Made by a program: the position numbers and the translations under genes
Notes under the pieces: model-generated
The model's input: the letters and a program-made list of their open reading frames with translations, nothing else
What the model was told of the DNA's origin: nothing
Database searches by the model: none
Assembly (NCBI GenBank): GCA_025350695.1
Contig: JANXXI010000271.1
Coordinates: 1-42,624, forward strand
Direction: 5' to 3'
Length of the DNA: 42,624 bases
Source: Acidobacteriota bacterium
Lineage (GTDB): Bacteria; Acidobacteriota; Terriglobia; Bryobacterales; Bryobacteraceae
Part shown: one piece after another, positions 6,011 to 36,435 of the stretch
How the letters are laid out: each line of letters starts with the position of its first letter
How positions within the stretch are numbered: the first letter of the stretch is position 1

Positions 6011-9000
6011 ATGCGTCCAAAAACAACGTGTTTACTCATTGGCATTTACACAAAGGATCCTGAAAAGGCGTCAAGCGCCTACGATGCCCTTCGCTCAAAA
6101 GGCTTTAGGTCCATCACCTCTTCCCGCATCCCCCAGATGGATGGCGAAGCCCTCCTTTGCCACTTAATCGATCGATCCCGCCTAAAAGACGGCGTCGACA
6201 TCATGCGTGTCGACGGAACTCCAGCCCTTTTTGTCCTCCCACCAGATCTTGAAGGTTCCGCGCCGGATTCGCAGACGAATCAACGCATCCACGCCAAACT
6301 TCGGGCTTGCGACGCCTCTCTGAAATCTTCGCTTGACCACTTGCGCCATTCCGTGATTTTGGACCACCCGCTCAGTCCCTCGGCGGAATGGTTGCTGGAT
6401 AATGCGCATCTAGCCAGAACGCAAATTAAGGAACTTTACAGGCATCTACCCAGACAGCCTCGCGCTGCCCGTTACCGCGGCCAAGGCTCTGACGGTTACG
6501 AGTACGCCTTCGAGCTCGCAGGACAAATCGCCTCCGCCGGCGATCACGTCGTACAAGCCAACGAGATTGTCGATTCCCTTCACACGTCCCAGGAATCACG
6601 CCCATTGTCCATGGCCGAACTATGGGCTTTGCCCCTCCTGTTGCGCTTAGCATTACTCGAAGCGCTGGCGGGCTTCGCCTCCCGCGTAAGCCGTAACCAA
6701 CAAGTTCGGGAAACGGCTTATTTTTGGGCGAATCGCTTGATTTCAAGCTCACGGCGGGACGCCGATAGCCTGGAGCGGATTCTGTCGCAAATGGCTGCTG
6801 AATCCGCCGCCGCCCAGCCTTATTTCATCACTTGCTTGGCGGAACAACTGCATGACGAGGATAACGCCCTCGCCCGCTTTCAGCAGTGGATTGAAACTGG
6901 CCCTAGTTCCTCGCTCGATGAGTTGGTGCGCATCGAACATAATCGCGAAGCGGCGGAATGTGTTTCTATTTCCAATGCTTTCGGAAGCCTTCGTACGCTA
7001 GCCCGCATTGATTTTTCCGACGTCTTTGAGGCCACGTCGCTAGTTGAAAGGGAACTGCTCTTGGACCCATCGGGCGTCTACGGCCAAAGCGATTTCGTAA
7101 CGCGCGACCAATGCCGCAAGGCCGTGGAACACACCGCCCGATACTCCTCGATGGATGAACTTAGCGTAGCCGGAAAGGCCAATGCCTTGGCTCGAAATGG
7201 AAACTCTCCACGCTCGCGCCTCGTTTCCTACTACTTGATCGACGAGGGTGATGCCGAACTCGAAAGGGAAACGTGGGCTCGAATTCCCGCTTCTACCCGC
7301 TTCTTGCGCTCTGTGAACCGCCACTCCTCGGGCGCCTACATTTCCTCGATTCTCCTAATCACACTCAGCTTTCTCGCGCTCGTGCTCCTGGCGGCATGGG
7401 AAACAGGAGTGAGGCCGCCCGGCATGCTGGTTTTATTGGGTGTCCTCGCCATGTTCCCGTTAAGCGAACTGGCGATTCAAGTGGTTCATAGCCTGGTCAT
7501 CTCCCTGTTCCCTCCCTGCAAATTGCCCAAGTTAGATCTTGAGGCTGGAATTCCCCTCGAACACGCCACGCTCGTTGTTGTTCCCATGATGCTCTCCGGG
7601 GACGAAGCGGTTAAGCTGGAACTCCAAAAACTGGAAATTCGATTTCTCGCCAACCCAGATGTCAATCTTTACTTTGCGTTGCTTTCCGATTTTGAGGATG
7701 CGCCCACCCCTACCATGGCCCGCGATACCGCGCTTCTTCAAACTGTCCGCGGCGGCATCGAAGAGCTCAATAATCGCCACACAGGTGGACGCTTTCTTTT
7801 GTTCCACCGTCCACGATCGTGGTCGGAAAGCGAACAAATGTGGATCGGACGGGAACGCAAGCGCGGCAAACTTGAAGACTTGAATGCCTTCCTCAATGGA
7901 GAAGGCTCACAGCAACTTCTTGCGTCGGGCTCGCTGCCTGTGCCGATTCGCTACGTGATTACGTTGGACGCCGATACGCAACTCCCCCCCGGCGCCGCCC
8001 GTCGTTTAGTAGAGACGATCGCTCACCCCCTGAACCGTGTTGAGATTGACCCAACTGGACGGACTCGAACTCGTGGCTTCACCATCATTCAACCTCGAGT
8101 CAGCGTCGCCCTGCCCGACGCCACCGCCACTCGCTTCACACGCATCTTCGCCGACGCAACCGGCACTGACCCCTATTGCCAGACTGTGTCCGATGCCCAA
8201 CAGGATCTGTTCGGCCATGCCATCTTTCACGGCAAAGCCATTTACGAAGTCCGGGCGTTCAGCTCCATTTTGCATCAACGTTTTCCTCCGGAAACAATAC
8301 TTAGCCATGATTTGATTGAAGGTGCGCACGTTGGCGTGGGTCTCGCCACCGATATCGAATTGTTTGAAAACATTCCCCTCGATTATGCCGGCTATTGTAA
8401 GCGCCAGCATCGTTGGATTCGCGGTGATTGGCAGATTGCCGAATGGATGCTCTCCCGCGTTCGAGGCGGTTCGGGATCTTTGTCCCCTAATCCACTCACG
8501 CCAATCAATCGGTGGCGGATCTTCGACAATTTGCGCAGGAGCGCCGTACCCATCGCCTCGGTGCTTCTCCTTCTATTCGGATGGTTGATCTCCGCATCAC
8601 CAGGCTTATGGACACTGGTGATGCTGCTTGCCTTGGCGATCCCGGTGCTTGCGCCATTACTCGAAAGGCTCGCCTTGCGAATGCAAGGAAAGATTCAGGG
8701 CTGGCATGGCGCCGCCGACGAACTAGTCAGAACGATTGTCTTATTGGCCTTTCTTCCCCATCAAGCATGGCTGGCCGCGGACGCCATCGTGCGGGTCACG
8801 TTTCGGCGATGGTTTAGCCGCCGCCACCTACTCGAGTGGCAAACAGCCGAAGGCGTTCACCGCGATTCGAAGGTTCACATTGGTTCCACAATGAAAGCCT
8901 TGTTAGTGATAAGCGGCCTTTCGTGCATTCTAATGTTGGCGCTCGGTGCGCGAGACGCGCTTTTTCCCGCCTCCTGGTTGGTGGCTCTTTGGATAGGCTC

Positions 9001-12000
9001 ACCGGGCTTGATGAAGTGGCTCGCCTACCCCGGCGCAAGCTCCAGCCACAGCAAGCTTCGCCCCAGTGATGGAGTTTACCTGCGCCGCATTGCCCGTCAG
9101 ACATGGCGTTATTTTGACGACCTGGTGACGCAGGAAACCAATTGGCTGCCCCCCGACAATTCCCAGTTGGCGCTTCGCGTGGAAGTGGCTCAGCGAACCT
9201 CTCCCACAAACATTGGCCTTTGGTTGAATTCAGCGCTGGCGGCCCACGATTTCGGCTACATCACTACTGATGAATTGTGCCGCCGCTGCAGGCTTACCCT
9301 GACGACCCTCCAACGCATGGAGCACTACGAAGGCCATCTGTTGAATTGGTACGACATTCAAACCCTCGCTCCGTTACCGCCTCGCTATGTTTCCACCGTG
9401 GATAGCGGCAACCTACTGGCCAGTTTGTGGGTTCTGAATCAAGGTTGCCAGGATGCGCTTTCCTCCCCCATCATCAGTTCGCTCAGCTTGCGCGGCTTGT
9501 TCGATGCGTTGGCCTTGCTTCGGCGGGTCTGCGGCGGCGACCCTTCCGCGTCCGTTCCGATACAAGCCCTACGGCGCTTGTTGCGCGGCAAAGTCGAAGG
9601 ACATGCCCTCATCGGCCGCTTACGGTTAGCCCAAGGGCCGGCAAAGCAGTTGCTCCAAGTTCCTTCACCCGGAGATGAACGTTCCTATTGGGCATCAAAG
9701 GTTGATCAACAGCTAGAGTTTTGGATTGCCTCTATTGATCGCTATTTGACTTGGATGGAAATCCTGACTCAACCGCCGGATTCATTAGTCCGCGAGTTGG
9801 GTGAAGAGGTAGTAAAAATGCGTCGCCGGGCAGTGCATGCGGCGCCCTCGTTGCTGGAGCTTGCTGAAAAAGGCTGCCCCTTTGTCGATTCCATCCTGTT
9901 CAAACGGGGAGACCCGGGAATGTCTCCCGAACTCGCCAGTTGGCTCGACCGGCTAGCCGAATCGTACGAGCGTTGCCGCGCTCTCGCAACCGAGTCCGTT
10001 CGCCATCTTAGGGATTTGGGAGCCAACGCCACTCGCCTCGCCGACGGAACGAATATGAAGTTCCTGTTTGACCCTTCCCGGGAATTATTCGGTGTGGGGT
10101 ACGCCGTTGGTGACCCTCTTGTCTTCACAAGTCATTACGACCTGTTGGCCAGTGAGTGCCGCTTGGCCAGTCTTGTTTCCATAGCCAAAGGCGATGTACC
10201 GTTGACTCATTGGAAAGCCCTGGGCCGGCCTCGCGTGACAACTCTGAACCACCGCGCTCTACTGAGTTGGAGCGGCACGATGTTCGAATATTTAATGCCG
10301 GCCTTGTACGCCCAAAGTTTCCCCAATTCCCTACTAGATCAGGCGTGCGGGGACGCGCTCGATAGACAGATCGATTACGGTCGGGATAACAATATTCCAT
10401 GGGGCGTTTCCGAATGCGCCTATAGCGCTCTCGACGCTAATCAAATCTACCAATACCACGCTTTCGGAGTCCCACAGTTGGCGTTGCAACGTGATCTCAA
10501 GGGCTCTCTCGTCGTTGCCCCGTACGCCACCATGCTGGCTCTGCCGTTGAACCCTCCCGCGGCTATCGACAATCTGAAGCGCCTGGAAGGTTTGGGCGTA
10601 AGTGGAACTATGGGTTTCTACGAATCCATCGACTTCACTCGCGAAGCAAAGAGAGGTGGCGATCTAGGGTTGGTCATTTATTCCTATATGTCCCACCACC
10701 AAGGCATGTCGTTGCTTGCGCTCAATAACCTTCTGCATCACGACCCGATTAAAAGGCGCTTCCGAAACGATTTGCGCATCCGAGCCTTTGAGTCACTGCT
10801 GTTTGAGCGGGTACCAGTCAGCAGTCCGATTTCCGATGAAACGCAGGCGTACGAACCAACGATTAAAGTCGCGCCCGTCGAACAACAGGTTCAAAGAACC
10901 TGGGAACAAAAAACCATCATTCCGCAAACCCACCTTCTGGGCAACGGCAAGTACTCCCTGCTGATTACAAACTCCGGAACTGGCTATTCCCGTTGGAATG
11001 GATTTGACATCAACCGCTGGCGAGCCGATTCAACGCTTGATCCGTGGGGCGCGTTCCTCTATATCCGTGACTTGAAATCAGACGTGCGCTGGGCGGCTGC
11101 TCCGAGTCCTCTGGGAGCAAATCTTGGAGCAACCACTGTCCGGTTCACAGCCGACCACGCGGAATTCCATCGCATCTTCATGGGTATCGAAACGCTAATG
11201 CATATTACCGTTGCCGCCGAAGACAACGCCGAGCTGCGGCGAGTTTCCGTAACGAATCGATCGCTCCGTGCACGGAAGGTCGAATTTACCAGCTATCTAG
11301 AACTTGCCTTGGCCCCGCACGCCATGGACAAGGCGCATCCAGCTTTCGCCAAAATGTTTATTGAAACCGAATGCGTCGAACCCGGAGTTTTATTTGCTCG
11401 TCGACGACCCAGGTCTTCATCGGATGTCCCCATTTGGTCAGCTCACATGCTCACCGGCTTCAACGGTGAGATCCAATTTGAAACGGAGCGTGGAAACTTT
11501 CTTGGCCGCGGGAATACAGTCGATTCGCCCATTGCACTACGAGACGATCTCCCAGGCTCCACCGGAGCAGTGCTCGATCCGATCTTCAGCCTCCGTTGCT
11601 CTTTGCCCATGGAACCCCGGGAAAGGGTCGAGCTATGTTTCATTACACTGGCGGCTTCCTCACGCGAAGAATTGCTTGCTCTCGTCGAAAGATACCGCAG
11701 ACCCGAGTCTGTTTCCAGGCAATTTGAAATGGCCTGGACCAGAAGCCAATTGGAGTTCAGGTACTTGGGTATTGGATCCAGCACAGCCCATCGGTTTCAG
11801 GAACTGGCCGGACACTTAATCTATCCGGATGCGGCATTCCGGGCATCCGATGACCGCCTGTTGCGTAACGTGCTTGGCCAATCGTCTTTGTGGATTTATG
11901 GCGTATCTGGAGACTTGCCGATTCTTGCCATCACTGCAACCGACGCCAGAAGTCTTCCTCTAATCCGTGAGCTGCTTCTGGCGCATTCTTACTGGCGCAC

Positions 12001-14791
12001 CCGTGGATTCCAAGCTGATCTGATCATCCTCAACCAGGAAAGCCCAAGTTACGATCATCCGTTGCGTCTACAGTTACAGCGCCAAATTGCAGCGCACTCC
12101 AGCCAGCCTGCGCCCGAACGTTCAGGAAATGTTTACTTGCTCGATTGGCATGCGATCCCCGAAGAGCATCGCACTTTGATTCTTGCCGCTTCCAATGTGA
12201 TTTTGAGCGGAAGCCGGGGCTCGCTGCAGCAGCAACTGCTTCGTACCACCAGCCGCGCTAGCCTTCCGCTTCTGGCCCCTACTACTCTTCCGGTCAAGTA
12301 CCTGCCGCAACCTTTGCCCTTCCTCGAACTTCCCTATTTCAATGGCATTGGAGGTTTTACCCGCGACGCCAGGGAATACGCAATCTATCTCAAACCCGAG
12401 ACAAACACGCCGGCCCCGTGGATCAATGTTATGGCTAACAAGAACTTCGGAACAGCTGTAAGTGAGAGTGGGCAAGGAGTGACGTGGCGCGGCAACAGCC
12501 AAGCCCATCGTCTAACCCCTTGGCATAACGATCCACTAAGTGACCCCCAATCGGAAATCATTTACATCCGGGACGAATCCACAGGAGAGTATTGGACTCC
12601 TACCGCATTGCCAATCCGGGGAACCAGTGCGCATCGCGCGCGTCATGGCCAAGGCTATACGGTGTACGAACACAACAGCAACGGCATTGGCCAGGAACTT
12701 ACAGTTTTTGTCCCCATCAACGGCGAAGGCGAAGGCGATCCTATTAAAATAGCCCGGCTTCGCTTACGGAACGATTCCCAAAACGCCCGTACACTTTCGA
12801 TCACTTACTATGCAACATGGGTTCTCGGTTCCGATCGGGAAGATTTAATGAACCACATTCACACCGCCTGGGATCAGGGGTCGAACGCGCTATTGGCCAC
12901 GCACAATTGGAATGGCTCGGGTGACAAGGCGTTTGTCTCCTGCTCTTCCGGTGTCTCCTCATACACCGCGGATCGAGCCCAGTTTTTTGGCATAAATGGA
13001 TCTTGCGCTAAACCAGCGGCCTTGACCGCGGCTCGTTTGGACAATCGCACGGGAGGTGGACTGGACCCTGCCGCTGCCTTACAGTGTTCCGTGCAACTCT
13101 CCCCCGGCGGTCAAACTGAAGTGGTCTTCCTTTTGGGAGAGGCGGACTCGACGGAAGATGTCAGAGCCCTACTATCGCGATACAAAACAAGACAGCAAGT
13201 GGAATCCGCACTGACAGAGGTTCATCGCTATTGGGATAACACTTTGGGCGCGCTGCAAGTTCGCACGCCTTCTCTTTCCACGGACTTCCTGCTCAATCGA
13301 TGGCTGGTCTATCAAACCATGAGCTGCCGTTTCTTTGCGCGCACAGCCCTGTATCAATCGGGAGGGGCACTTGGATTCCGGGATCAGTTACAGGATTGCC
13401 TGGCATTCCTTTATTCGAAACCCCACTTAGCGCGAGCCCATATTCTTGCCTCCGCCGCGCGGCAGTTTGTCGAAGGCGATGTGCAGCATTGGTGGCATCC
13501 GGATACCGGCAACGGAGTTAGAACACATTGTTCTGACGACTTACTCTGGCTGCCGTATGCCGTATGCCGTTACGTTGAGATCACTGGCGACCGTTCTATC
13601 CTTGAGGGGGAGATTCCGTTTCTCGAAGGCGCACTTCTTGCCGAAGGCGAGGATGACCGCCTCTTTATCCCAACTATCAGCGCACAAGCCGCTCCTCTGT
13701 GGGACCACTGCAAGCGGGCGATCGACAAGGCGTGGCGCCTGGGCAGTCACGGACTCCCACTGATCGGGTCGGGCGATTGGAATGACGGAATGAACCATGT
13801 AGGCGCGGAGGGCCGCGGTGAGAGTGGATGGCTTGGTTGGTTCCTACCCTTTGTGACGCGGGACTTCGCCCGTCTGATCGAAAACCTGCCGCAGGGCGCC
13901 GCCGTGGCCGCCGATTGGCAATCGCGCGCGGACGGCTTGGTGCAAGCCATGGAGCGCGAATGTTGGGACGGCAATTGGTATGTTCGAGGTTTCTTCGACA
14001 ATGGCGCGGTGCTAGGTTCAAAGTCAAACGCGGAGGCGAGCATCGATTCGCTGCCCCAATCCTGGGCTGCTATTTCCGGCGAGGCTGATCCTAAACGTAC
14101 GAAAGAGGCCATGCAATCCGCCGAGGAGCGATTGGTTGATCGGACCAATAAGCTAGTCAAATTATTTACTCCTCCTTTCGATCACTCTGAGCCAAATCCC
14201 GGCTATATCATGGGCTACCCTCCGGGAGTGCGAGAGAACGGCGGCCAGTATACGCACGGCTCTTTGTGGCTCGCAATGGCCCGCGCCAGGATGGGTGACG
14301 GGGCTGCGGCAGTGGAACTTCTGAAGTTGATGAACCCCATTGAAAAGACCCGGAATCTGGTTGAGGTGGAGCGCTATCGGGGCGAGCCGTACGTGGTTGC
14401 GGCCGATGTTTACGCATCCCCGAGCTTTGCTGGACGTTGCGGTTGGACCTGGTACACGGGTTCGGCTTCCTGGATGTATCGCATCTGGATAGAGGAAGTT
14501 CTTGGTTTTCAATTGCGAGGAAATAGGCTGACGTTGAAGCCAGTAATTCCCCAGGATTGGCCGAAGTTCGAAATGTGGTTTCATTACAAGTCCTCCCAAT
14601 ATGAAATAAACGTTCATAATACTGCCGCTTCCCGGTCGATGGAACTCGATGGAATTCCTGTTAGTGAAGCTTCCATTGAATTACTCGACGACGGGCGCAA
14701 GCACTTACTCACGGTCATGATTCCCACAAAAACAGATCCGCCGCTGCAACTTCTGCACCCAAGTGAAGCGATTGTTGCAACAGATACTTAG
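6011..14791 (+). CDS. ndvB: Cyclic beta-1,2-glucan synthase, NdvB type
   Basis: A 2926-residue integral membrane enzyme, slightly longer than rhizobial NdvB. It makes periplasmic cyclic beta-1,2-glucans from UDP-glucose, which protect against low osmolarity. A GT84-type glucosyltransferase core has the acidic motif LDADTQ (Asp653, Asp655) and QHRWIRGDWQ (from residue 799). Hydrophobic segments lie near residues 444-490, 844-885 and 961-1010. Two beta-sandwich/carbohydrate-binding parts follow. The C-terminus is a GH94 phosphorylase-like domain with GSGDWNDGMN (catalytic Asp near 2592), which sets chain length. The first 45 residues (GIY, then DALRSKGFRS) resemble the N-terminal domain of the glycine-zipper proteins at 15289 and 30109, which is unusual. 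The start has no strong ribosome binding site, so coupling to the upstream small gene is possible. Confidence 0.93.
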   Translation: MRPKTTCLLIGIYTKDPEKASSAYDALRSKGFRSITSSRIPQMDGEALLCHLIDRSRLKDGVDIMRVDGTPALFVLPPDLEGSAPDSQTNQRIHAKLRACDASLKSSLDHLRHSVILDHPLSPSAEWLLDNAHLARTQIKELYRHLPRQPRAARYRGQGSDGYEYAFELAGQIASAGDHVVQANEIVDSLHTSQESRPLSMAELWALPLLLRLALLEALAGFASRVSRNQQVRETAYFWANRLISSSRRDADSLERILSQMAAESAAAQPYFITCLAEQLHDEDNALARFQQWIETGPSSSLDELVRIEHNREAAECVSISNAFGSLRTLARIDFSDVFEATSLVERELLLDPSGVYGQSDFVTRDQCRKAVEHTARYSSMDELSVAGKANALARNGNSPRSRLVSYYLIDEGDAELERETWARIPASTRFLRSVNRHSSGAYISSILLITLSFLALVLLAAWETGVRPPGMLVLLGVLAMFPLSELAIQVVHSLVISLFPPCKLPKLDLEAGIPLEHATLVVVPMMLSGDEAVKLELQKLEIRFLANPDVNLYFALLSDFEDAPTPTMARDTALLQTVRGGIEELNNRHTGGRFLLFHRPRSWSESEQMWIGRERKRGKLEDLNAFLNGEGSQQLLASGSLPVPIRYVITLDADTQLPPGAARRLVETIAHPLNRVEIDPTGRTRTRGFTIIQPRVSVALPDATATRFTRIFADATGTDPYCQTVSDAQQDLFGHAIFHGKAIYEVRAFSSILHQRFPPETILSHDLIEGAHVGVGLATDIELFENIPLDYAGYCKRQHRWIRGDWQIAEWMLSRVRGGSGSLSPNPLTPINRWRIFDNLRRSAVPIASVLLLLFGWLISASPGLWTLVMLLALAIPVLAPLLERLALRMQGKIQGWHGAADELVRTIVLLAFLPHQAWLAADAIVRVTFRRWFSRRHLLEWQTAEGVHRDSKVHIGSTMKALLVISGLSCILMLALGARDALFPASWLVALWIGSPGLMKWLAYPGASSSHSKLRPSDGVYLRRIARQTWRYFDDLVTQETNWLPPDNSQLALRVEVAQRTSPTNIGLWLNSALAAHDFGYITTDELCRRCRLTLTTLQRMEHYEGHLLNWYDIQTLAPLPPRYVSTVDSGNLLASLWVLNQGCQDALSSPIISSLSLRGLFDALALLRRVCGGDPSASVPIQALRRLLRGKVEGHALIGRLRLAQGPAKQLLQVPSPGDERSYWASKVDQQLEFWIASIDRYLTWMEILTQPPDSLVRELGEEVVKMRRRAVHAAPSLLELAEKGCPFVDSILFKRGDPGMSPELASWLDRLAESYERCRALATESVRHLRDLGANATRLADGTNMKFLFDPSRELFGVGYAVGDPLVFTSHYDLLASECRLASLVSIAKGDVPLTHWKALGRPRVTTLNHRALLSWSGTMFEYLMPALYAQSFPNSLLDQACGDALDRQIDYGRDNNIPWGVSECAYSALDANQIYQYHAFGVPQLALQRDLKGSLVVAPYATMLALPLNPPAAIDNLKRLEGLGVSGTMGFYESIDFTREAKRGGDLGLVIYSYMSHHQGMSLLALNNLLHHDPIKRRFRNDLRIRAFESLLFERVPVSSPISDETQAYEPTIKVAPVEQQVQRTWEQKTIIPQTHLLGNGKYSLLITNSGTGYSRWNGFDINRWRADSTLDPWGAFLYIRDLKSDVRWAAAPSPLGANLGATTVRFTADHAEFHRIFMGIETLMHITVAAEDNAELRRVSVTNRSLRARKVEFTSYLELALAPHAMDKAHPAFAKMFIETECVEPGVLFARRRPRSSSDVPIWSAHMLTGFNGEIQFETERGNFLGRGNTVDSPIALRDDLPGSTGAVLDPIFSLRCSLPMEPRERVELCFITLAASSREELLALVERYRRPESVSRQFEMAWTRSQLEFRYLGIGSSTAHRFQELAGHLIYPDAAFRASDDRLLRNVLGQSSLWIYGVSGDLPILAITATDARSLPLIRELLLAHSYWRTRGFQADLIILNQESPSYDHPLRLQLQRQIAAHSSQPAPERSGNVYLLDWHAIPEEHRTLILAASNVILSGSRGSLQQQLLRTTSRASLPLLAPTTLPVKYLPQPLPFLELPYFNGIGGFTRDAREYAIYLKPETNTPAPWINVMANKNFGTAVSESGQGVTWRGNSQAHRLTPWHNDPLSDPQSEIIYIRDESTGEYWTPTALPIRGTSAHRARHGQGYTVYEHNSNGIGQELTVFVPINGEGEGDPIKIARLRLRNDSQNARTLSITYYATWVLGSDREDLMNHIHTAWDQGSNALLATHNWNGSGDKAFVSCSSGVSSYTADRAQFFGINGSCAKPAALTAARLDNRTGGGLDPAAALQCSVQLSPGGQTEVVFLLGEADSTEDVRALLSRYKTRQQVESALTEVHRYWDNTLGALQVRTPSLSTDFLLNRWLVYQTMSCRFFARTALYQSGGALGFRDQLQDCLAFLYSKPHLARAHILASAARQFVEGDVQHWWHPDTGNGVRTHCSDDLLWLPYAVCRYVEITGDRSILEGEIPFLEGALLAEGEDDRLFIPTISAQAAPLWDHCKRAIDKAWRLGSHGLPLIGSGDWNDGMNHVGAEGRGESGWLGWFLPFVTRDFARLIENLPQGAAVAADWQSRADGLVQAMERECWDGNWYVRGFFDNGAVLGSKSNAEASIDSLPQSWAAISGEADPKRTKEAMQSAEERLVDRTNKLVKLFTPPFDHSEPNPGYIMGYPPGVRENGGQYTHGSLWLAMARARMGDGAAAVELLKLMNPIEKTRNLVEVERYRGEPYVVAADVYASPSFAGRCGWTWYTGSASWMYRIWIEEVLGFQLRGNRLTLKPVIPQDWPKFEMWFHYKSSQYEINVHNTAASRSMELDGIPVSEASIELLDDGRKHLLTVMIPTKTDPPLQLLHPSEAIVATDT

Positions 14792-33147: not shown

Positions 33148-33462
33148 CTATGCGACGCGGCGCGTCGGGGCCTTGATCCGGAAAGCCACTTCGAGACCCG
33201 CGTCGGTGAGCATGTTGACCAGCGTGTCCAACGAGAACCGGCTGATCTTGCCCCGCGTCAGATCCGAGACCCTGGGCTGACTCACCTTCAGGCGCTTGGC
33301 CGCGTCGGCTTGGGTCAAACCTTCCTTTTCGATAAACTTCCGCAAAGCCGTCATCATCTCTGACCGGATGCGCAGGTTGCTGGATTCGGCGGGCGAGAAA
33401 CCGAGGTCGGTGAAAACGTCACCACTGCCCATCGTGATCGTTGTGTCAATCGTGCCTTTCAT
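33148..33462 (-). CDS. Antitoxin, XRE-type helix-turn-helix (HigA-like)
   Basis: About 104 residues. The middle has a clear helix-turn-helix: KEGLTQADAAKRLKVSQPRV, then SDLTRGKISRFSLDTLVNML. The C-terminus reads AGLEVAFRIK. It would neutralise the toxin encoded just upstream and repress the shared promoter. The start at 33462 has aaggag six bases upstream; an ATG at 33477, which overlaps the toxin stop (ATGA), is the alternative and would add five residues. Toxin-first gene order is typical of HigBA-like pairs. It probably binds the inverted repeat at 33802-33850. Confidence 0.9.
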   Translation of the reverse strand: MKGTIDTTITMGSGDVFTDLGFSPAESSNLRIRSEMMTALRKFIEKEGLTQADAAKRLKVSQPRVSDLTRGKISRFSLDTLVNMLTDAGLEVAFRIKAPTRRVA

Positions 33463-33473
33463 GGCTTTCTCCT

Positions 33474-33812
33474 TCATTTCGATTTCCGCGCCTCCATCAA
33501 CGCAGCGTAGCGTTTTCTGCCCAAGTCGAGGTCGGCCTTCCGGGTTGCCTGGGTCTTCTTGACGAAGCAGTGGAGCACGTAGACGGCTTCCTCGTATCGG
33601 GCAACGTAGAACACTCGATACTCGTTGTCACCGTGAACGCGGATCTCCATGACGCCCGAGCCGACATCCGGCATCACCTTAAAATCCTCAGGCACTTCGC
33701 CGCGCTGAACCAGGTCGAGTTGGTAGCCCGCGTCTGAACGAATGGCAGCCGGGGCCCCTTGCAACCGGGTCCGGCTGTCACCCATCCAGGCGACTGGCTT
33801 CCGACTCGACAC
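33474..33812 (-). CDS. Toxin, HigB / phage Gp49-like (RelE superfamily)
   Basis: About 112 residues. The family N-terminus KPVAWMGDSRTRLQ and the blocks AIRSDAGYQLDLVQRGEVP, MPDVGSGVMEIRVH, YRVFYVARYEEAVYVLHCF and KKTQATRKADLDL all fit Gp49-like proteins, mRNA interferases of the RelE superfamily. The start is uncertain: GTG (33812) gives the family N-terminus but would lie about at the transcription start predicted from the TATAAT box; ATG at 33785 would cut off KPVAW; TTG at 33827 overlaps the promoter. The gene overlaps or adjoins the antitoxin gene, so translation is coupled. Confidence 0.9.
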   Translation of the reverse strand: MSSRKPVAWMGDSRTRLQGAPAAIRSDAGYQLDLVQRGEVPEDFKVMPDVGSGVMEIRVHGDNEYRVFYVARYEEAVYVLHCFVKKTQATRKADLDLGRKRYAALMEARKSK

Positions 33813-33850
33813 CTCCTGATTATACAACAGTGGATATATTTGTCGAGTCG
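33802..33850 (-). promoter_or_regulatory. Promoter and symmetric operator of the toxin-antitoxin pair
   Basis: Perfect 10-bp inverted repeats cgactcgaca (33802-33811) and tgtcgagtcg (33841-33850) flank a minus-strand promoter: -35 TCGACA (33841-33846), 16-base spacer, -10 TATAAT (33819-33824). One arm covers the -35 box, the other the expected transcription start. This is the expected layout for autorepression by an HTH antitoxin. Confidence 0.75.
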
Positions 33851-33874: not shown

Positions 33875-33931
33875 GACGTCCATGGACGTCTTTGCTTTCG
33901 GAACCGGTCGTAGAAGACGTCCATGGACGTC
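33875..33931. repeat. Two direct copies of a 16-bp palindrome
   Basis: The perfect palindrome gacgtccatggacgtc occurs at 33875-33890 and again at 33916-33931, 41 bases apart centre to centre (about four helical turns). Flanks extend the symmetry (aag...ctt). It lies upstream of the toxin-antitoxin promoter in DNA without a convincing gene (33851-34270). Confidence 0.8.
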
Positions 33932-34270: not shown

Positions 34271-34347
34271 TGGTCGGGGCGGCAGGATTCGAACCTGCGA
34301 CCTCCTGGTCCCGAACCAGGCGCGATACCAGGCTTCGCTACGCCCCG
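34271..34347 (-). tRNA. tRNA-Pro (anticodon CGG)
   Basis: A complete cloverleaf reads on the minus strand. The acceptor stem is cggggcg/cgccccg with discriminator A and an encoded CCA. The anticodon stem is cctgg/ccagg around the seven-base loop ttcggga, giving anticodon CGG for proline codon CCG. The T arm is gcagg-ttcgaat-cctgc. It is 77 bases long including CCA. Its 3' end faces the accessory block at 32.2-34.2 kb. Confidence 0.95.
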
Positions 34348-34422: not shown

Positions 34423-36435
34423 CTAGCCGCGCCGAGGTTTTCCGCCACTCTTACCGGCAAACTTGCCCCCCGGTTTCCCCGCACCCGATCGATTGCCTGG
34501 CCCTTTCTCCCAAGGATTTGGCCTCGTTTTCCATGCAGGCGGTCCTGCTCGACGTTCTGGACGAGGTCCGCCCTCGCTCCTTGGCCCGTCAAATTTCGGG
34601 CGATCATCGCCACCACGGAAAGGCGGTCTGCCTCCACCGTCTCTGGGCGGCCCACCAAATTTTGGTCTATCGCCTCCACCGCCGAACTTCGGCCGATCGT
34701 CACCGCCACGGAAGGGGGGCCGATCGCCGCCTCTCGGTGGACCCTGAAATCTTGGCCGATCCTCTCCCCCGCCGCGGAAAGGAGGTCGGTCTCCGCCCCT
34801 CGGCGGACCTTGGAATCTAGGTCGATCCTCACCGCCGCGGAATGGCGGTCTATCGCCACCACGGAATGGAGGCCGATCACCGCCGCCCTCCGGTTTCTGA
34901 TATTGCGGTCGACTCTCACCAGGGAACTTCGGCTGGTCACCATCGCCTCTCGGCGGACCCTGGAATCTTGGCCGATCCCCACCACGATCTCCGCCATACG
35001 AAGGCCTATCATTATCGCGGCCGCGCGGCGGACCTTGGAACCTTGGCCGATCATCACCACCACGGAAGGGAGGCCGATCGCCATCACCCCTTGGCGGACC
35101 CTGGAATCTTGGACGATTTCCACCACGATCTCCGCCATACGAAGGCCTATCATTATCGCGGTCGCGCGGCGGACCTTGGAACCTTGGCCGATCGTCACCA
35201 CCACGGAAGGGAGGCCGGTCGCCATCACCTCTCGGCGGACCCTGGAATCTCGCACGATCTCCACCGCGATCTCCGCCATACGAAGGGCGGTCCTCATCCC
35301 GTCTCGGCGGACCCTGGAATCTTGGACGATCTCCGCCTCGATCCCCACCGTAGGAAGGACGGTCCTCATCGCGTCTCGGCGGACCTTGGAATCTCGGGCG
35401 CTCTCCACCTCGATCACCACCGCCGGAGAATGGAGGACGCAACGGTCCAGGGCCATCTTCGCGGCGCTTCATCGGAGGACGATCCCCACCGCGGGTAATC
35501 AAAGGCTCAGGGACAAACTTATCGGCGGGAATCACTGCTTCGCGACGCGGAGGTTTAGCGGATCTCTCTTCATTCTTGACGAACGGAATGTTGATCGGCT
35601 CAGTAACCGTGCCCGGAGCAACATAGGTCCCCACAGCCAATTCTTCAGCCGTTGCTGGTTCATGCCGAACCGGCATTTCGTCGCCAGGGTATAGAACACG
35701 TTCTAAGAACAAACCCGATGCCGGGGCAGTCCACTCCGGGACCGGCAATTCAGGCATCTGCTTGCCTTCAAGCAACTCGGCGAACTGGGCAACTGTTACT
35801 TCGTTCAGGCCAACCTTGACCAGCGTACCCACAATCCGCCGCACCATCTTCCAAAGGTAGTGGGATGCGGTGATGTGGAACACCAGCATGAAATCGTCCA
35901 TTTCAAGGTATGCCGATTCCACGTGCACTATTGTCGATTCACCCGGCTTCGATGGATCCTTCGCAATGAAGTTCACGAAATTATGGCGCCCCGCCAGCAG
36001 CTTTGCGGCCTCAATCATCGGAGCTTGATCCAGCTTTTCCTTCACCCACCAAACATGCCGCTTGGCGAATGCAGTTTTGCGAATCGCGATTTGATAAACG
36101 TAGGATCGGGAAACGGCGTCGTGCCTCGCATGGAATGCGGGCGAAGATTCTTCAACATCAAGAACAACGATGTCCGATGGCAACCGATCGTTCAATCCGT
36201 ATTGGATTTCAAAAGCCTTCCAGCCTCGATGGGTTTCCACACGAAGGTGAACCACTTGGGCGATAGCGTGCACCCCAGCGTCTGTGCGGCCGGAGCCCTG
36301 CATATCGCACGGTTCTCCGAATAGTTCGCCCGCAGCTTGACGCAACTCTCCTAGGACGGTCCGGGCGTTGTTCTGTTCTTGCCAGCCGTGATACTTCGTG
36401 CCGTCATATTCAAGCGTAATTTTCCAGGTGTTCAT
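34423..36435 (-). CDS. truA: tRNA pseudouridine synthase TruA with a long repetitive Arg/Gly/Asp/Pro-rich tail
   Basis: 670 residues, about 2.5 times the usual TruA. Residues 1-250 are a complete TruA that makes pseudouridine at positions 38-40 of tRNA anticodon arms. The catalytic Asp52 lies in [11 protein letters not shown]. Other family blocks are [29 protein letters not shown] and [10 protein letters not shown]. Residues of about 316-670 are a low-complexity tail: nine copies of R-[PA]-R-F-Q-G-P-P-R, mixed with DRPPFRGG and [11 protein letters not shown] units, then a Lys/Gly end ([15 protein letters not shown]). The tail is rich in RGG-like motifs and likely binds RNA or drives condensation. 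No frame break is seen, so the fusion appears real. The tRNA-Pro gene lies downstream. Confidence 0.9.
34955..35236. repeat. 141-bp in-frame tandem duplication inside the TruA tail
   Basis: Bases 34981-35088 and 35122-35229 match at 105 of 108 positions. The period is 141 bases, exactly 47 codons, so the duplication keeps the frame. More diverged copies of shorter units flank it on both sides. Confidence 0.85.

Follow-up and report, generated by a model that had tools for sequence, protein, structure and literature searches.

A second TruA with a long, predicted disordered C-terminal tail in a Bryobacteraceae genome, and tails of like make-up on FolP in related genera

We conclude that the gene studied here encodes a second TruA (TruA2) with a genuine C-terminal extension that is predicted to be intrinsically disordered. 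It lies in a contig of 42,624 nucleotides, here called the window, from a member of the Bryobacteraceae (Acidobacteriota). For the tail, the reading frame, the coding constraint, the predicted disorder, the composition, the patchy distribution and the parallel in FolP (dihydropteroate synthase) are established, and we infer its translation in the cell, its contacts, its partitioning and any effect on activity. We consider it moderately probable that the tail is a lineage-specific polyampholyte, selected for its composition, and a module for weak multivalent interaction or for partitioning. The tail is real, and it is somewhat more interesting than the initial annotation of this DNA stated, for a reason other than affinity for RNA.

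Core and tail form a single open reading frame (36435 to 34423 on the reverse strand, 670 codons plus stop) without a stop or a change of frame between them (Table 1). The core scores 169.8 bits against TIGR00071 (hisT_truA), above the cut-off of 142.85, and matches PF01416; it does not reach the TruA model NF000622 (101.6 against a cut-off of 308). The nearest structures include PDB 1vs3 (E 9.4e-35, residues 6-251), 1dj0 and 2nqp, and TruA2 appears from its core sequence and GRTD to be of the same kind as TruA, the tRNA pseudouridine(38-40) synthase. The aspartate of the GRTDxG motif is the catalytic residue in TruA, and G49-R50-T51-D52 is invariant in 11 aligned TruA proteins, which, with the TIGR00071 score, bears out the earlier statement that the catalytic core is intact (GRTDAG). 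AlphaFold2 models the core with confidence (mean pLDDT 62-95 per 10-residue block up to residue 250). The matched TruA chains in the PDB, mitochondrial and PUS1 proteins aside, are 249-279 amino acids long; taken together, the PDB matches extend over residues 6-255 of TruA2, and none goes further. The description of the enzyme as housekeeping is weak, since the genome has another TruA of the ordinary, tail-less type (open frame of 263 codons, 38% identical to TruA2), and a TruA search of the genus mate G001 (96% complete) gave only that other type and no TruA2. A scan for promoters and terminators gave counts no higher than in shuffles.

Table 1. Features of truA2 and its surroundings in the window.
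Feature	Coordinates	Strand	Basis or remark
truA2 coding sequence	34423..36435	-	670 aa, stop codon included in span
TruA catalytic core, residues 1-253	35677..36435	-	GRTDAG at 49-54; profile, PDB, pLDDT
Linker, residues 254-314, mixed A/E/P/V-rich, net charge about zero	35494..35676	-	composition, pLDDT
Low-complexity tail, residues 315-670, R/G/P/D with regularly spaced F/Y	34426..35493	-	composition, pLDDT, patterning
Nine R[PA]RFQGPPR units, residues 346-568	34732..35400	-	motif count; tandem arrays
Basic extreme C-terminus, residues 646-670, net +0.28 per residue	34426..34500	-	charge count
Block colinear with genus mate G001, two blastn pieces, ~77% DNA identity	36578..39936		blastn
tRNA-Pro (CGG)	34271..34347	-	75 bp downstream of truA2, same strand

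Judged from the changes among its repeats, the tail behaves as coding sequence. Differences between repeat copies fall on codon positions 1, 2 and 3 in the numbers 116, 104 and 421 (421 of 641 on the third), and codon differences in the TruA2 frame are synonymous in 297 cases and non-synonymous in 185. The other two forward frames give synonymous to non-synonymous ratios of 38:471 and 44:476. One reverse frame, whose third position coincides with that of TruA2, is similar (307:213). By frame arithmetic, the sole listed ORF of at least 80 aa across the tail in that frame is 34463-34747; therefore, we attribute the constraint signal to TruA2. This signal comes from repeats within one gene, a close between-species relative of the tail being absent. 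The initial annotation had named two observations that would speak against it, a frameshift between core and tail, and relatives in which the tail is absent and the region noncoding. In the assembled sequence, a single uninterrupted frame runs through the linker; the tail is indeed absent in most relatives, but the region was not found to be noncoding.

The extension beyond the core is 417 residues long, and its last 356 residues are of low complexity and rich in R, G, P and D; the earlier figure of a 350-residue tail fits this stretch but not the whole extension. Residues 301-670 contain 19.5% R (72 residues), 23.5% G, 19.5% P, 11.6% D and 6.7% K+E, with 15 RGG, 20 DRP and 28 F+Y (7.6%). Their 85 positive and 55 negative residues amount to a net charge of +0.08 per residue and a charged fraction of 0.38. 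Sequence entropy is 3.13 bits in the tail and 4.15 in the core. Exactly nine copies of R[PA]RFQGPPR occur, as first counted, with starts at residues 346-560, and Tandem Repeats Finder reports a 141-bp unit with 92% matches within the tail; the exact copy number is less sure because assembly can miscount high-identity tandem arrays. Based on AlphaFold2, which gives nearly all of residues 259-670 a pLDDT below 50 (about 40, from an 11-sequence alignment with only three long-tailed members), the low-complexity tail is predicted to be intrinsically disordered, and the prediction of disorder that had been proposed as a check comes out as expected.

The likening of the tail to RGG/FG proteins has held up less well. 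FG dipeptides number only two in the 417 residues of the extension, too few for an FG-repeat protein. An RGG/RG region, as reportedly defined by Thandapani in 2013, has two or three RGG or RG that lie 0-4 residues apart, and the tail contains no di-RGG, tri-RGG, di-RG or tri-RG (none within 4 residues). Like RGG/RG-motif RNA-binding regions, it is rich in Arg and Gly, has aromatics and is predicted to be disordered; in contrast to them, its RGGs are isolated, Pro and Asp are plentiful and its charge is nearly balanced. It is a near-balanced Arg-Asp-Pro-Gly polyampholyte with spaced aromatics, for which "RGG/FG" is a loose label. None of 300 shuffles mixes the charges as well as the tail does, and its aromatics are evenly spaced (CV 0.24 versus 0.90, with 0 of 300 shuffles as even), in part because of the tandem repetition.

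Some TruA match was found in 226 of 237 genomes of the family, and the TruA2 type, taken as rows better than E 1e-70 in the family search, in 102, the window's included; an order-level search brought in 20 more genomes and no additional TruA2. A long R/G/P-rich tail is present in three of the 102, those of the window (417 residues), L101 (309) and L121 (261), with repeat units that differ among the three (RKFDGP in L101). Apart from four in genus g239 and three whose alignments needed correction, all described below, the remaining TruA2 of the family end at most 35 residues past the core, near residue 250 in most, and so most relatives are without the extension of the window protein. The check proposed for long TruA tails, whether their composition is conserved, gives a positive answer for R, G, P and D in L101 and L121, but the L121 tail is poor in aromatics (3%) and most relatives have no tail. 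Even spacing of F/Y is not significant in L101 or L121 (27 and 41 of 300 shuffles as even). Within one family, natural versions of the TruA2 core that have a long disordered tail can thus be compared with versions that lack it. What looked like tails in L078, L099 and L136 were tblastn alignments that had run on beyond a stop codon; after correction, none reaches 60 residues. Shorter Lys/Arg/Pro-rich C-terminal tails of 38-56 residues occur on the TruA2 of L156, L159, L161 and L165 (genus g239), possibly as an intermediate form.

The phylum-wide TruA search drew on 396 genomes and was read among the matches listed and in 38 further regions, which were chosen mostly for long frames and in part overlap loci among those matches. 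Over all searches, 177 distinct TruA homologues were read; identity is at least 44% in 157, among which is a fragment of the window gene. Two TruA2 of other Acidobacteriota families have a similar extension at the N-terminus instead: that of L059 has 104 residues of RPEGGPRPPFKP type and that of L064 has 98, R/P/G/K-rich like L059's. C-terminal extensions of 66-98 residues occur in L021, L027, L055, L063, L066 and L067, with a weakly tail-like segment in L055 only. The long frames of L056-L058 and L060-L063 seem by eye to be open frames upstream of TruA and not R/G/P tails. In a quick tree of 111 rows, the three long-tailed TruA2 were not united. In a thinned tree of 64 rows, with 42 related family rows and five outgroups dropped and with long branches, the best tree with the three proteins held together exceeded the quick free tree by 34 log units (p-AU 0.847), and a single origin is therefore not rejected. 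The TruA tails may have arisen once, their repeats turning over since, or more than once.

The TruA2 tail, used as a query, matched a second protein in family relatives, which we take from its sequence to be FolP, the dihydropteroate synthase. A FolP search of the family matched 213 of 237 genomes. Every FolP gene with a readable end has a long tail in genus g233 (16 of 16) and in genus g213 (13 of 13), 29 of 29 together; 18 FolP were matched in each genus, of which one more was cut by its region and one was not fetched in g233, while four were not fetched and one was mistyped in g213. The tails in these two genera span 178-510 residues, the shortest being that of L220, a readable g213 gene cut by its region. 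The FolP of L222, L224 and L226, from other genera, are also long-tailed, and in sixteen further FolP of other genera, that of the genus mate among them, the tail has at most 25 residues; these counts give no family-wide rate because the choice favored long frames and near matches. The FolP match of the window genome takes up 277 codons of an open frame of 297, which leaves no room for a long tail. Tails of GDRPP[YF]RGG type are seen in L174-L191, L196 and L197 (g233) and in L176, L208-L209 and L211-L220 (g213).

A composition score was trained on 31 FolP tails and no TruA and applied to 3397 ORF segments of at least 150 aa in all frames of the loci examined. The three TruA tails score 129.8, 105.0 and 98.8, inside the FolP range. 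FolP tails in the sense frame score 67-143, with the exception of the serine-rich L226 (28) and of L220, which is below the scores listed and, being cut by its region, is mostly linker; the tail make-up is less typical in L224, L226 and the cut L220. Outside the sense-frame TruA and FolP tails, the best score is 52.7, from an antisense frame of a FolP tail. The arrangement of charge is also alike, with a near-neutral linker, in most a mildly positive middle, and a basic end. The first 50 residues of TruA and FolP tails carry -0.08 to +0.10 per residue, the middles are mildly positive in most, those of L224, L217 and the cut L220 being slightly below zero, and the last 25 residues of complete tails longer than 150 aa are all basic (+0.16 to +0.32). 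F/Y are evenly spaced in all eight FolP tails tested, and charge mixing is weaker in two of these eight (13 and 21 of 300 shuffles). The two groups differ in the host enzyme and in the recurrent basic motifs at the end of many FolP tails (FRKRP, FRPRFPKPxGFRR[DG] and IRSPRPKRD), which are missing from TruA.

Between close pairs of FolP tails, raw synonymous to non-synonymous codon changes are 129:19, 65:4 and 111:27; the bias is weaker between more distant pairs (82:52, 146:98 and 101:76), all of these being raw counts and not rates per site. The best DNA match between TruA and FolP tails has 51.8 bits and synonymous-shuffle controls reach 64.4 bits, so that calling the tail portable rests on likeness and not on shared descent. 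The likeness points to convergence on composition, or to a descent too old to see.

If the tail is indeed a composition-selected module, selection would maintain R, G, P, D, spaced F/Y, a near absence of aliphatics, a near-balanced charge and a basic end, and not the sequence as such. Arg and Phe/Tyr would serve as weak stickers, and Gly/Pro and the alternation of R and D would keep the chain soluble and open. The enzyme would gain many weak contacts of low specificity, with itself, like tails, RNA or other polyanions and the ribosome-rich cytoplasm; the tail would govern where the enzyme is, its solubility and its crowding, and not the reaction that it catalyzes. The like tail on FolP in sister genera argues for a portable lineage module rather than an accessory of an RNA enzyme. 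Given its patchiness (3 of 102) and the lack of any TruA2 seen in the genus mate, the tail is unlikely to be essential. A conserved tail of like make-up on a folate enzyme also raises the question of whether bacteria place metabolic enzymes by composition-coded tails. In a bolder version, which we regard as speculative and unlikely, unrelated housekeeping enzymes (TruA2 or FolP, depending on the genus) would bear a common kind of polyampholyte tail whose composition selection maintains. The tail would be a shared code for addressing or condensation that co-localizes its carriers, the equivalent in bacteria of the low-complexity tails of eukaryotic client proteins.

The substrate of TruA is RNA, and the tail could instead be an RGG-type RNA-binding segment that raises the affinity of TruA2 for tRNA or other RNA and perhaps forms RNA condensates. 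We think this rather improbable. Its abundant Arg and Phe/Tyr, net positive charge and basic end are what such a segment might have, and the R/G/P- or R/G/K-rich N-terminal extensions of L059 and L064 occur on TruA2 as well. However, the charge is nearly balanced, RGG are isolated and FG rare, and FolP, which is not an RNA enzyme, bears the same tail type in every readable gene of two genera; the tail type is thus not particular to RNA-modifying enzymes, and a restriction to them is weakened. Nor was any tail-like segment found in stretches of 2.2-3.5 kb around six PF00849 pseudouridine synthase and 16 DEAD-domain matches of the window genome, where the highest segment score was 20; on the same measure the three TruA tails reach 138-281. 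RNA is still likely to be one partner of the TruA2 tail, by analogy with the Arg-rich low-complexity regions typical of bacterial RNA-binding proteins in the part of PMC6821194 consulted; the FolP tails argue against its being the sole reason for the tail. The TruA2/FolP pair therefore lets one ask whether RG-rich tails must imply RNA binding.

Searched at E<=10 against the 237 family genomes, the TruA2 tail protein gave 53 match rows, 30 of them with a locus: the window gene, four FolP loci (L174-L176 and L230) and 25 others. In the 19 of these 25 that were examined, the most R/G/P/D-rich ORF was never a tail of the TruA2 kind. The query is insensitive, having missed the L101 and L121 tails and found 4 of the 32 FolP tails read, and so leaves room for further host proteins.

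It seems quite unlikely that the tail is a neutral by-product, a GC-rich tandem repeat that spread beyond the lost stop codon of a dispensable paralogue and is merely tolerated. Tandem arrays, one with 92% matches, patchy presence, another TruA in the same genome and a genus mate in which no TruA2 was seen would all fit such an origin, but the third-position bias among repeat copies, the fact that tails in three genera and in FolP reach a similar composition with different repeat units, and the mostly silent change between close FolP tail pairs speak against it. That a frameshift, a misassembly or a contaminating contig fused TruA to unrelated sequence is hardly credible, even for a fragmented assembly (391 contigs, 4.8% contamination estimate) in which repeats could be miscounted, as one uninterrupted frame crosses the linker, the contig is colinear with that of the genus mate at ~77% DNA identity, the neighboring amidohydrolase is 85% identical to its G001 counterpart, and TruA2 with such tails occur in two other genomes. 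This colinearity makes a contaminating contig unlikely, and contamination was not supported. Similarity to G001 stops 142 bp upstream of the truA2 start and, on this comparison, truA2 sits in a native contig at a place where a gain or a loss sets the two genomes apart.

Among bacterial proteins, disordered tails rich in Arg are already a known kind. RsuA/RluB-type synthases of Bacteroidota with DRP/RFN-rich extensions would be a near parallel to the TruA2 tail. Eukaryotic G/R low-complexity domains are described as typical of RNA binding in the portion of PMC11132505 consulted. The enrichment of arginine in low-complexity regions of bacterial RNA-processing proteins, as given in the consulted part of PMC6821194, is shared by TruA2 as an Arg-rich tail beside an RNA enzyme; the present case differs from that set in that a folate enzyme also bears the tail type. 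The words "pseudouridine" and "dihydropteroate" do not occur in the main text of PMC6821194, the parts consulted of PMC9312465 and PMC12428049 contain nothing on TruA or FolP tails, and among the open-licence PMC papers listed no title or abstract opening mentions a TruA or FolP tail of this kind. Within the compass of those titles and openings, such a tail on TruA, and a like make-up on FolP, are apparently new.

In the stretches examined around truA2 in L263, L264, L050, L051, L088 and L073, no tRNA was found. Two short overlapping ORFs lie at 33148-33827 on the reverse strand of the window, a pair that by eye resembles a toxin-antitoxin system of HigB/HigA type. Just upstream of this pair are two exact copies of the 16-bp palindrome GACGTCCATGGACGTC (33875-33890 and 33916-33931), which look operator-like in sequence. 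The window also contains an ORF of 2926 codons on the forward strand (6011-14791).
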